Positions 14,465 to 18,258 of a stretch of 64,000 bases of DNA are shown piece by piece. This DNA comes from an uncultured Bacteroides sp. GTDB lineage: Bacteria > Bacteroidota > Bacteroidia > Bacteroidales > Bacteroidaceae. The notes beneath the pieces were generated by a model, which made no database searches, was not told the origin of the DNA, and saw nothing but the letters and a program-made list of their open reading frames with translations. Location of the stretch: the NCBI GenBank assembly GCA_947646015.1, contig CANSEY010000001.1:124001-188000 (forward strand), written 5' to 3'. The position numbers were made by a program, and so were the translations under genes. The stretch's first letter is position 1, and each line of letters starts with the position of its first letter.

Positions 14465-16147
14465 ATGAAACGGATTTTCACACTATATCTCTTTATCTTA
14501 TTCTGTCTGATTTTGCAAGCACAAGAAGAATTATATGAACGGGTATATGTACATACGGATAAAACGTGTTATTTGGCCGGTGAAGAAGTATGGCTCAAAT
14601 TTTATACTATTGACACACATTTTCGCCCATCTTCTTTCAGCAAAGTGGGATACATAGAAATATCGAATACTGAACGGCCTAAAGCACAACTTAAACTGGC
14701 ACTTGACAATGGGAGCGGTTCGGGCAAAGTCAAGATTCCTACAGACGCTCCTTCGGGAATTTATGAATTGACCGGATACACACGATATATGAGGAATGAA
14801 GGAGAAAAAGTGTTCTTCAGAAAATCCATTGCTGTAATTAACACTTTCCGAGTATCAGACTCCGATCCTATTGAACTAGCGGATTCTGCCGAGATATATC
14901 CGAAAGGGAAACCGGCTACCACCGAAAATATTCATATAAAAACTTCCCAGTCGAATTACAACACACGCCAACTCGTAGAATTGACCATTAATAGACTACC
15001 GGATGAAGTATCCGATCTTACTGTCTCGGTAAGCCGTAATGATTCACTGGTAACCCTCCCGCCTCTTGAAGAATCCACCTGGAGAAAACAAGTAACCGCT
15101 ACTCCCGGAACATTTTCCGGAAAATGGATACCGGAATATGAAGGGCATATCATCTGCGGACAGATAGAAAGCCCTACAGGAGAAACATTGAAGCAAGTAC
15201 AAAATGAACCTATATCAGCCGACATCGCTTTCGTAGGAAAAGATATACGATATGTGCAAGGACAAGTGGAATCGGGAGGAAATACACTGTTCTACACAAG
15301 CCATGTATATGGAACAAACGATGTAGTAGCCGCTGCATGGAACATTAACGGGGAACCGTTCAGAATGAACATCTTATCACCCTTCAGTGAAAAGTTACCC
15401 CAAAACCTGCCATCATTAAAACTCTATCGGAATAAAAAACGACTGTTGGAAAGGAGCATAGGTATACAGCTGCAGCAAGTCACAGTGCTCGATTCATTGG
15501 ATCATGCTATTCCTCTGCAATCTTGTTATGGACTTCAACCTTATCTGAATTACAATTTGGATGAATACACACGATTCAATACAATGACAGAAACTTTCGT
15601 GGAATTCGTACGCAGTGTGATAATACGTAAAGTTAATGGAAAACGTAGATTAAGAGTACTCAAAGAAGGAGAAAAAAGATTCAATATCGGAAATACATTG
15701 GTACTGCTGGACGGTGTTCCCATTCATGACCATGAGGATATTTTAAAATATAATCCCAGATTGGTGAAGAAAATCGAAATATATAACGGCCGTTATGGAT
15801 TTGGTGGTGAAGTATTCGAATGCATGATTTCACTTACTACCCAAAGAGGAGACTTACCTTCCATACAGCTTAGTGACGATTCACGACTAACGGTTTACGA
15901 GTGTCCGCAACTGCCTGTTACATTTAAGATGCCTGAATATAAAGACGCTACTGACAAAAAATCACGTAGACCGGATTTCCGCCATACGCTATACTGGAAT
16001 CCCTCTGTAGAGACAGAAGCAGGAATAGATACCACACTTTCATTCTATACTTCTGACCTTGAAGGAGAATTTAAGGTGGTAGTGGAAGGCTTCACATTAA
16101 AAGGAGAGCTGATCAGAGGCGAGGTAAACTTCCATGTGAAAAAATGA
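14465..16147 (+). CDS. Exported macroglobulin-like protein with a TonB-plug-like segment but no barrel
   Basis: A 560-residue exported protein (signal peptide to about residue 19, LILQAQ). The N-terminus is an MG2-like domain with the tell-tale YVHTDKTCYLAGEEVWLKFY, followed by at least one more beta-sandwich to about residue 300. Residues about 410-455 resemble a TonB receptor plug: NTLVLLDGVPI, then KYNPRLVKKIEIYNGRYGFG. The C-terminus (LYWNPSVETEAGIDTTLSFYTSD) looks like the A2M-type domain that ends in FKVVVEG. No beta-barrel follows, so it cannot be a transporter by itself. It is the last gene of the receptor/DUF4249 operon. Related proteins are often annotated only as 'MG2 domain' or 'plug domain' proteins, with function unknown. 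Confidence 0.8.
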   Translation: MKRIFTLYLFILFCLILQAQEELYERVYVHTDKTCYLAGEEVWLKFYTIDTHFRPSSFSKVGYIEISNTERPKAQLKLALDNGSGSGKVKIPTDAPSGIYELTGYTRYMRNEGEKVFFRKSIAVINTFRVSDSDPIELADSAEIYPKGKPATTENIHIKTSQSNYNTRQLVELTINRLPDEVSDLTVSVSRNDSLVTLPPLEESTWRKQVTATPGTFSGKWIPEYEGHIICGQIESPTGETLKQVQNEPISADIAFVGKDIRYVQGQVESGGNTLFYTSHVYGTNDVVAAAWNINGEPFRMNILSPFSEKLPQNLPSLKLYRNKKRLLERSIGIQLQQVTVLDSLDHAIPLQSCYGLQPYLNYNLDEYTRFNTMTETFVEFVRSVIIRKVNGKRRLRVLKEGEKRFNIGNTLVLLDGVPIHDHEDILKYNPRLVKKIEIYNGRYGFGGEVFECMISLTTQRGDLPSIQLSDDSRLTVYECPQLPVTFKMPEYKDATDKKSRRPDFRHTLYWNPSVETEAGIDTTLSFYTSDLEGEFKVVVEGFTLKGELIRGEVNFHVKK

Positions 16148-16197
16148 CCCGGCCTCAAAACTCAACGACACGAAACAAACTTGAGTCAAAATAAAAA

Positions 16198-16233
16198 AAG
16201 TGGGGAACACTTTTATTTAGTGTATCCCCACTT
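16198..16233 (-). terminator. Terminator of the micro-ORF unit, also facing the envelope operon
   Basis: Arms 16198-16210 and 16220-16233 pair as AAGTGGGGA plus ACAC with one bulge. On the minus strand the stem is followed by a long T run, a good intrinsic terminator. It can also stop plus-strand transcription from the operon ending at 16147. Its minus-strand left arm overlaps the last codons of the 28-residue ORF. Confidence 0.7.
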
Positions 16234-16299
16234 CATCATTTCATTTCTGCCGGCTTCTCTCAAACATCTTTCCAGCAGATGCATTACTACTTTTTTCAT
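16213..16299 (-). CDS. Candidate 28-residue micro-protein (second ORF of unit)
   Basis: A minus-strand ORF of 28 codons plus TAA. It begins MKKVVMHLLERCLREAGR and ends MMKWGYTK. It is strongly basic and can form an amphipathic helix over residues 4-16, with no membrane-spanning segment. It lies 64 nt after the stop of another short ORF in the same unit. Both peptides end in a W-G-Y motif. The terminator stem overlaps its last codons. No family is recognised. Evidence is the promoter-ORF-ORF-terminator layout and the shared C-terminal motif. It could instead be non-coding RNA. Confidence 0.45.
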   Translation of the reverse strand: MKKVVMHLLERCLREAGRNEMMKWGYTK

Positions 16300-16363
16300 T
16301 GCTTTAAATACTAATAATAATTACCTTAATTAATACACACTGAAAACCTGAAGGGAAAAACGC

Positions 16364-16438
16364 TTAGAGCGTCACATATCCCCAAATGTTAGGATTGGCA
16401 TTAGCCAAATTCTTTAATAAACTTCTTACAATCTTCAT
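16364..16438 (-). CDS. Candidate 24-residue micro-protein (first ORF of unit)
   Basis: A minus-strand ORF of 24 codons plus TAA. It starts MKIVRSLLKNLANANPN and ends IWGYVTL. It is basic, with an amphipathic N-terminal half. A purine-rich stretch (AAGGTAAAAAG) lies just before the ATG and could serve as a ribosome site. A -7 promoter box at 16504-16511 would give a leader of about 60 nt. The W-G-Y near its end recurs in the next ORF (16213-16299), suggesting related or co-acting peptides. No similarity to a known family is recognised. Confidence 0.45.
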   Translation of the reverse strand: MKIVRSLLKNLANANPNIWGYVTL

Positions 16439-16503
16439 AATCTTTTTACCTTAAAAACTGTTACCTAAAAACTTTGTTATCCTAATTTTTATGTTTTACA
16501 ACA

Positions 16504-16511
16504 CAAAAGTA
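16504..16511 (-). promoter_or_regulatory. Bacteroides -7 box for the micro-ORF unit
   Basis: On the minus strand this reads TACTTTTG, an exact TAnnTTTG match. Nothing but the two short ORFs and the terminator lies downstream before the convergent operon. The 230 bp upstream of it (16512-16740) hold no gene that I can see. Confidence 0.5.
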
Positions 16512-16744
16512 AAGCCAAAACAGATACGTTGTACTCAAAAGCAAGATAAAAACATGTTTTAAAACACATTTCTTGATGTATATCAAGAAAAAGAGTCCCG
16601 GATGGTAATCAAAAGACAAAACAGGACAATAAGGGAGTCAAAAAGACAGGCTGCAACTGACAATATCTCACATCCGAATGACAGGCCGTCATAAAGTAGA
16701 CAGGAAGAAAGATAGTTTTCAAAAGTAGAAAAGACACTAAAAAG

Positions 16745-16781
16745 AAAAGAGGAAAGCGTTTACACCACGCTTACCTCTTTT
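16745..16781 (-). terminator. pepD terminator
   Basis: A 15-bp stem with one mismatch (arms 16745-16759 and 16767-16781) and a 7-nt loop, followed on the minus strand by a T-rich tail. It lies 20 bp past the pepD stop. Confidence 0.75.
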
Positions 16782-16800
16782 CACTATCAATGGACTTTAT

Positions 16801-18258
16801 TTATTTCATTGGAGTCTGCTCCAAAGTAGCAATTAAAAAGTCATAGAATTTTTGAACTGTCGGAATCAAAGCTCTTTCATCGGGAGAATGCGGAGAGCGT
16901 AGTGTTGGCCCAAATGAAATCATATCCAACCCAGGAATAATAGCTCCGATGATACCACATTCCAATCCGGCATGAATTACTTTCACTGCCGGTTCTGTAC
17001 CAAACTGGTTCTTGTAAGATTCCTTCATAGCATGTAAAATCGGAGAATTAATATCGGGTTGCCATCCGGAATAGCCTCCGGTCATCTCTACCTTCATACC
17101 TGCCATAGAAAAACAGCATTCCAAACTGGTAGTCAGACATTCCTTCATACTGTCACTGGAACTGCGCGCAAGGATTTTGAAAGAGGCTTTACCTTCACCA
17201 ATATTGATGATAGCTAAATTTGAAGAGGTTTCCACGGTATCGGGAATAGTAGGAATCATACGCATCACACCATTCTGGCAAGCAAAAATAGCATCGATCA
17301 GATTATCCTGGATTTCTTCAGGAACTTCTCCAGCAGGTAATTCTACCCGTTCTGCAGTAAAGCTGATAGGAGTTTCGATCGCTTTGAACTCTTCATTGAA
17401 AAGATCTTCACAATATTTCACCAAAGCCAACAATTCTTCTTCATTTTCAGCAGGAATAGTCACTACAGCATGTGCCTCGCGAGGTATGGCATTCCGCATA
17501 TTTCCGCCTTCCCAGCTTGCCAGGCGGGCTTCATAAGTTGCTACTGCCTCACGTATAAAACGTACCAACAATTTGTTGGCATTGGCACGTCCCTGATTAA
17601 TCTCCAATCCGGAATGTCCTCCACGAAGACCTTTCAGATTCACTCTAATAGCGATATCACCTTCTTCCGGAGCAACTTCCTTATATTCAAGAGAAGCAGT
17701 TACATCCATACCACCAGCACAGCCAATATAAAGTTCACCTTCATCTTCAGAATCAAGATTAAGCAATATTTCGCCATTCACCGTACCCGGTTTTAAGCCA
17801 AAAGCACCATACATGCCCGTTTCTTCATCTTTCGTAATCAAAGCCTCCAATGGCCCGTGTTTTAGATTCTGATCTTCAAGAACAGCCATGATAGCAGCTA
17901 CACCCAAACCATTATCGGCCCCCAATGTAGTACCTTTCGCTTTTACCCATTCACCATCTATATAAGTTTCGATCGGATCTTTCTCAAAATCGTGAACTGT
18001 ATCGTTATTTTTCTGCGGAACCATATCCATATGTGCCTGAAGGATAACTCCTTTACGATTCTCCATCCCCGGAGTGGCGGGTTTACGGATAATCACATTA
18101 CCGGCATCATCCACAAAAGTTTTCAATCCAAGACTATTACCGAAGTTTACCAGAAATTCGGTAATTTTTTCCATATGTCCCGATGGCCGGGGAATCTGTG
18201 TCAAAGAATAAAAGTGCTTCCATACATTTTGTGGAGCTAAATCAAGAATTGTGCTCAT
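16801..18258 (-). CDS. pepD: Aminoacyl-histidine dipeptidase (M20C peptidase PepD)
   Basis: A 485-residue cytoplasmic dizinc metallopeptidase that cleaves Xaa-His and other dipeptides. Expected metal and catalytic residues are visible: His76 and Asp78 in LQAHMDMVPQ, Asp115 in LGADNGLG, the Glu pair at 145-146 in DEETGMYG, Asp in NLDSEDEGE, and a C-terminal His in SPHSPDER. The lid domain insertion begins after RGGHSGLEI. Its length matches E. coli PepD (485). It is a single gene with its own promoter box (18299-18306) and terminator. Confidence 0.95.
   Translation of the reverse strand: MSTILDLAPQNVWKHFYSLTQIPRPSGHMEKITEFLVNFGNSLGLKTFVDDAGNVIIRKPATPGMENRKGVILQAHMDMVPQKNNDTVHDFEKDPIETYIDGEWVKAKGTTLGADNGLGVAAIMAVLEDQNLKHGPLEALITKDEETGMYGAFGLKPGTVNGEILLNLDSEDEGELYIGCAGGMDVTASLEYKEVAPEEGDIAIRVNLKGLRGGHSGLEINQGRANANKLLVRFIREAVATYEARLASWEGGNMRNAIPREAHAVVTIPAENEEELLALVKYCEDLFNEEFKAIETPISFTAERVELPAGEVPEEIQDNLIDAIFACQNGVMRMIPTIPDTVETSSNLAIINIGEGKASFKILARSSSDSMKECLTTSLECCFSMAGMKVEMTGGYSGWQPDINSPILHAMKESYKNQFGTEPAVKVIHAGLECGIIGAIIPGLDMISFGPTLRSPHSPDERALIPTVQKFYDFLIATLEQTPMK

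Follow-up and report, generated by a model that had tools for sequence, protein, structure and literature searches.

The Crp-type regulator Cur (BT4338) is required by Bacteroides thetaiotaomicron for colonisation of the gut; it activates as well as represses, and in carbon limitation it activates fusA2 via a 22-bp site that was tested by deletion (accessible part of PMC6989115). A consensus, wwwTATGTTnTAnAACATAwww, has been proposed for this regulator, and the use of arabinosides lies within its regulon (PMC3878776, as far as its text is accessible). In the accessible parts of these sources, the named targets comprise genes for the use of sugars, fusA2 and others; a microprotein operon is not among them, which sets the locus described below apart. 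Cur also controls Roc, via a gene product that PMC10294740 calls unidentified.

Two small RNAs come close to this locus in other respects. MasB (BTnc201) of B. thetaiotaomicron is a Cur-activated short intergenic transcript that is highest in starvation and has a strong Cur peak upstream; it seems to differ from our locus in its length of about 100 nt and in its narrow conservation, as described in the accessible part of PMC10994844. The FopS RNAs have sigma-ABfr promoters, and their possible regulator in bile salts is called unknown in the accessible text of PMC11697453. FopS is reported to be expressed in the opposite sense to GibS, whose levels are highest on mucin and in starvation.

Transposon libraries are reported to contain too few of the short genes, and in B. 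thetaiotaomicron there are 409 predicted sORFs, 7 of them with ribosome support. Here we describe a conserved, apparently undescribed family of microproteins that is probably under this master starvation regulator. No description of the micro-operon was found in the open-licence literature; single ORFs may already figure as unnamed candidates in supplementary lists of sORFs.

Layout and Genomic Position of the Locus

The window, i.e., the whole stretch of 64 kb that was analysed, corresponds to C1:124001-188000 of a 4.9 Mb assembly that is 74.7% complete. The initial annotation had described a self-contained minus-strand unit at 16190..16511, consisting of a TAnnTTTG box, ORFs of 24 and 28 codons, and a hairpin with a T run; each of these elements was found again on the same strand (Table 1). 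The upstream end had been drawn too short: two conserved regulatory boxes lie beyond it, so that the unit reaches approximately 16586, and an almost invariant regulatory region had thus been overlooked. At the other end, the 28-codon ORF runs into the terminator, so that its last codons and its 3' end lie inside the hairpin.

Table 1. Features of the unit and its upstream neighbour, in coordinates of the window.
Feature	Position	Strand	Basis
TTGAYN4RTCAA box TTGAYNNNNRTCAA, CRP/FNR-type palindrome (window TTGATATACATCAA)	16573..16586	minus	Exact TTGAYN4RTCAA in 53/53 upstreams
Site 1, palindrome GTGTTTTAAAACAT, predicted to bind Cur (BT4338)	16554..16567	minus	Conserved spacing; consensus likeness
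Sigma-ABfr -7 box TAnnTTTG, TACTTTTG	16504..16511	minus	Exact in 54/56 distinct upstreams
Site 2, palindrome GTGTTGTAAAACAT spanning the inferred start, likewise predicted to bind Cur	16491..16504	minus	Conservation; consensus likeness
ORF A, 24 aa, MKIVRSLLKNLANANPNIWGYVTL	16364..16438	minus	ORF list, profile search, pN/pS, B. fragilis comparison
ORF B, 28 aa, MKKVVMHLLERCLREAGRNEMMKWGYTK	16213..16299	minus	ORF list, profile search, pN/pS, B. fragilis comparison
Intrinsic terminator, hairpin then T run	16190..16234 (approximate)	minus	-21.1 kcal/mol, z -5.95 vs 200 shuffles
Upstream neighbour, aminoacyl-histidine dipeptidase gene (positional anchor, outside the unit)	16801..18258	minus	TIGR01893, 5.1e-177

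The initial reading of the unit proved incomplete, in that its place beside the dipeptidase gene is conserved among relatives. The unit is a two-gene version of a conserved micro-operon located 3' of the aminoacyl-histidine dipeptidase gene. This position was found in the window and in 13 of the 16 named loci that were fetched, the exceptions being L095, L107 and L108, the last of which, set within a long ORF in a different context, is a probable chance match. One locus, L103 of B. cutis, contains a full dipeptidase gene, then two other ORFs, then a second, 75-residue dipeptidase fragment followed by the micro-operon, and was counted among the dipeptidase neighbours through this fragment. In 11/16 named loci, the unit is followed by a gene of one and the same cluster, whose MG2 (alpha-2-macroglobulin-type) domains were confirmed in L097 and L104.

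We also inspected 11 genomes that lack all three ORFs; they were hand-picked from the no-match lists and have a completeness of 90% or more. All 11 keep the dipeptidase gene, and none has the palindrome within 1.5 kb after it; therefore, the operator and the ORFs are missing together in these genomes. It should be noted that the B. finegoldii record lists no gene at the place of the micro-operon, and that its gene table describes itself as incomplete.

A mobile or phage origin was considered and rejected: the 20 candidate stretches that a profile scan picked out in viral contigs included no relative, and the composite regulatory pattern had no match in the same contigs. Matches to ORF B in a plasmid record (NZ_OY725943.1) and in a record labelled as bacteriophage (MT836837.1) sit in the chromosomal dipeptidase locus, and both records are probably mislabelled pieces of chromosome that hold this locus with the micro-operon.

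Distribution and Relatedness of the Microproteins

A DNA search gave matches in 25 of 100 genomes, the source genome counted, and the unit of the window is 91% identical to that of B. fragilis S82. The source genome is accordingly taken as a Bacteroides species close to B. fragilis. With profiles (E up to 0.01), matches were obtained among 149 genomes of the genus for ORF A in 69, for ORF B in 76 and for a third related ORF, C, in 42, the union being 88/149. The other 61 sampled genomes, some of which are incomplete, have no profile match to A, B or C; the operon is thus not general in the genus. Named carriers are B. faecis, B. xylanisolvens and B. finegoldii. At the level of the order, 393 sampled genomes, among them the source genome, gave a single strong further match, to ORF B (4.8e-11) in G253, from another family; the operator is absent there, and we keep this locus (L090) as a distant relative of B. 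Weak matches in G066 and G454 were taken as chance.

The initial annotation had proposed a new small-protein pair. Small proteins are indeed what the comparison supports, but "pair" is too narrow, since relatives contain up to four related ORFs in tandem, with 24–32 residues in A, 28–31 in B and 29–31 in C. The sets found are A-B, A-C, B-C, A-B-C and A alone, with A-A-B-C in one genome and B alone outside the family. Across the loci that were read, the order A, B, C is the same, and all ORFs are intact. Profile comparison by hhalign shows homology between B and C (E 1.5e-9, probability 96%); between A and B it is probable (E 3.4e-5, probability 72%), and between A and C none was detectable (0.038, 1.4%). 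B. fragilis S82 also has lone A-like and B-like ORFs (L155 and L156), approximately 34 kb apart and without the operator; the A/B peptide family occurs in other settings, too.

Evidence for Coding

To describe selection on the ORFs, we used only pairs that do not differ in length and have a nucleotide identity of 75% or more. The pN/pS values were 0.197 for A (308 pairs), 0.169 for B (150 pairs) and 0.207 for C (36 pairs), and third codon positions account for 57–65% of the differences. In the same pairs, the ORFs are 83–86% identical, vs 40–48% in the next 60 nt, a comparison that is ungapped and in which the selection of pairs favours the ORF. Compared to B. fragilis Q1F2 and S82, the changes in the ORFs of the window are all synonymous (four in A; one and two in B), and these close strains show neither frameshifts nor stop codons. 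The motifs are conserved as well, with WGY in 31/31 distinct A peptides and [WMLN]GY in 33/33 distinct B peptides. Of the checks that had been proposed for the unit, those for synonymous bias and, in the two B. fragilis genomes, for intact frames favour coding. From these comparisons, ORFs A, B and C almost certainly code for proteins, and the unit, with its 88/149 genomes and its synonymous bias, is far more than a chance arrangement.

The same data bear on the other proposal made at the outset, a small RNA that merely contains ORFs. The transcript would then be mainly a Cur-controlled regulatory sRNA, with ORFs that are incidental or only recruit ribosomes. Its size, promoter and strong terminator are sRNA-like, FopS (below) carries a similar site, and MasB is Cur-activated in the accessible part of PMC10994844. 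Against this stand the conservation of amino acids, the excess of third-position differences and the presence of three related ORFs with variable spacers. Moreover, the unit has no Rfam match at the gathering threshold in the window or in eight homologous loci, and scans at a relaxed E-value, which covered 901 bases of locus L105 from B. faecis and a 701-base part of the window, gave sub-threshold, chance-like matches only. FopS itself (RF04319) has no match in the window at gathering, nor at a relaxed E-value in 16100-16800. Given that the peptides have been kept while the DNA diverged, that pN/pS is close to 0.2 and that two B. fragilis genomes show no frameshift or stop codon, the sRNA-only proposal is unsupported, and we consider a mainly regulatory sRNA very unlikely.

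Properties of the Peptides

The peptides had been described as basic and as able to form amphipathic helices, and both statements hold. The median charge is +5 for A, +4 for B and +5 for C; the maximal hydrophobic moment exceeds that of shuffled sequences (mean z 3.03, 1.64 and 1.97, respectively); and the AlphaFold2 model of the B. clarus B peptide consists of one helix (residues 2–23) with an open tail (pLDDT 84, pTM 0.39). Amphipathicity is nevertheless weak evidence, given the mean z of 1.64 for B. The W-G-Y that had been placed at the end of both peptides is present, but it stops a little short of the C terminus itself (WGYVTL and WGYTK). More generally, A contains WGY, B contains GY and C mostly YY (17/18 distinct C peptides).

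No relative above the cut-off was found for six peptides in NCBIfam and Pfam, for five peptides in PHROGs and PADLOC, or for the profiles of A and B among PDB sequences. The best sub-threshold values (RDD1 0.016, phrog_5382 0.032, 1wmg 0.052) look like chance.

Tandem sets of short amphipathic peptides that are related to each other and lack an obvious leader are also typical of phenol-soluble modulin operons and leaderless multi-peptide bacteriocins. By analogy, the peptides of the micro-operon could be secreted and membrane-active: they are tandem, related, basic and amphipathic, and no signal sequence is seen by eye. The micro-operon differs from these systems in its GY/YY tail, in the absence of a recognised exporter or immunity gene among the identified neighbours (in the window, the B. 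finegoldii record and the clustered neighbours), and in the one chromosomal place that is kept in 13/16 named loci. Secretion of this kind is, in our judgement, unlikely. Still less support can be given to the peptides as type I toxins of a toxin-antitoxin pair. They are very short and encoded in intergenic units, and putative type I systems have been reported in B. thetaiotaomicron; on the other side, they are charged (median +4 to +5) and amphipathic, up to four paralogues are under purifying selection, and the regulatory region points to metabolism. We regard toxins as highly improbable.

The Control Region

We read 56 distinct upstream regions, and left out L057 and L096 (no exact TAnnTTTG) and L090 (other family), which leaves 53 usable genus upstreams. 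The site 1 palindrome fits RTGYTNTANAACAY exactly in 50/53 and with one mismatch in three; in the window, 49.5 nt separate its centre from the first T of the downstream -7 box, and this distance is 49.5 nt in 49/53 and 48.5 nt in 4/53. A second copy of RTGYTNTANAACAY over the inferred start is present in 47/53, and is absent in L004, L025, L072 and L082-L084. The TTGAYN4RTCAA box is exact and at a fixed offset from the palindrome in 53/53. A sigma-ABfr -7 box begins at about -11; if this applies here, the positions come out at about -60 for site 1 and about +3 for site 2.

In the 64 kb of the window, TTGATN4ATCAA has a single match (0.27 expected; at least one in 22/100 shuffles). The TTGAYN4RTCAA box resembles the FNR sites of other bacteria and suggests a second protein of the CRP/FNR type.

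In the 4.9 Mb assembly, exact RTGTTNTAAAACAT occurs six times vs once for the reversed control: two copies are at the micro-operon promoter, three at copies of the FopS repeat and one before an ECF-type sigma gene. The last (L124, G000:C36:4838-4851) is upstream of an ECF-type-like sigma gene, 66.5 nt before a -7 box, and could be chance. A search for a wider regulon with one mismatch gave 52 matches vs 43 in the reversed control, and so the one-mismatch palindrome is not usable for this purpose.

The leaders show further repetition. In the window (16440-16490, minus strand) and in relatives, words similar to AGGATAACAA are repeated, and in many relatives AGGAGGATAACAAA-ATG stands just before ORF A in a Shine-Dalgarno-like arrangement; FopS has AAGGTTAACAAAGG. 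A Shine-Dalgarno-like sequence is unusual for Bacteroides. The leader words are possibly a candidate site of an RNA-binding protein.

Relation to Cur and FopS

The palindrome RTGYTNTANAACAY falls within the published consensus of Cur, and here it stands upstream of a sigma-ABfr promoter. A difference from the regulon lies in the 16-base core of Cur, TATGTTnTAnAACATA, to which the window has two mismatches in site 1 and one in site 2; over 53 relatives, site 1 has no mismatch in 11, one in 28, two in 12 and three in 2. The strict form TATGTTN4AACATA occurs in six places vs two in the control, and the micro-operon promoter is not among them. A GH127 beta-L-arabinofuranosidase-type gene has one of these occurrences 51.5 nt upstream of its -7 box; this is a single case, and the gene is a candidate at most for the published arabinoside target. 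In view of the likeness to the published consensus, the micro-operon is a predicted Cur target. We consider control by Cur probable on the strength of these sites.

The repeat with exact RTGTTNTAAAACAT is FopS (Rfam RF04319, 77.8 bits). We compared copies in the source genome (L121-L123, L125-L134) and in relatives (L176-L203). The palindrome (at least 10/12 positions) lies 48.5 nt before the -7 box in 28/35 copies, a proportion biased upward, as the copies are the best matches to a query that contains the palindrome. None of the 35 has TTGAYN4RTCAA within 30 nt upstream (best, three mismatches). The likeness of FopS to the micro-operon thus consists of a palindrome at a nearly equal distance before the -7 box, and of a leader word, AGG(A/T)TAACAA, that is similar by eye. 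FopS is, however, a noncoding RNA of 65–70 nt (accessible part of PMC11697453), whereas the micro-operon very probably codes for proteins and has no RF04319 match.

Base-pairing of FopS to the microprotein mRNA was tried and rejected. Mean energies in the start regions were -6.9 for A, -10.0 for B and -10.8 for C, vs -8.5 to -8.8 for shuffles, and because seven unrelated start regions of the window span -7.5 to -14.3, the pairing is nothing special.

Discussion

A Cur-controlled operon of amphipathic microproteins is the explanation that we favour, and we hold it to be probable. The operon would produce two homologous microproteins (up to four in relatives), mostly of 24–32 residues, each predicted to form an amphipathic helix of basic character and to end in a short tail that contains the conserved GY or YY. 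Transcription would start from the sigma-ABfr promoter under the control of a predicted Cur site near -60, a Cur-type site over the start and the TTGAYN4RTCAA box for another CRP/FNR-type regulator. When preferred sugars are absent, Cur would become active, bind near -60 and turn the operon on, a step that we infer from the conserved sites.

The direction of this regulation is a guess. Three observations speak against simple activation: repression is also among the actions of Cur, site 2 spans the start and could serve to repress, and FopS, with its similar operator, is reported to run opposite to the starvation-high GibS.

Once translated, the microproteins would presumably act inside the cell via the amphipathic helix, as the character of the sequences suggests, and the GY/YY tail may provide the contact to a specific partner. 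The likeliest place of action would be the inner membrane or a membrane protein, a placement which we put forward tentatively and with some doubt.

Basic peptides can bind RNA. The microproteins could therefore be imagined to act on starved translation, at the ribosome or at an mRNA leader, alongside EF-G2, and to be the Cur-controlled product for Roc; their predicted regulator is the same as that of fusA2. Roc was, however, studied in B. thetaiotaomicron VPI-5482, and the named carriers of the operon are other species, and this role appears quite unlikely to us. A broader proposal, in which undescribed tandem microproteins are a direct starvation arm of Cur at the membrane or in translation, a counterpart of EF-G2 and maybe the product for Roc, with FopS under Cur as well, is speculative, and we rate it as rather unlikely as a whole.

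Under the favoured explanation, i.e., a Cur-controlled operon of amphipathic microproteins, several consequences may be considered. The common operator makes Cur a named candidate for the regulator of FopS. Genes for proteins of 24–32 residues are easily overlooked, and Cur acts through at least one product that is called unidentified in PMC10294740. If Cur controls the micro-operon, its microproteins would be a compact effector of the starvation response.
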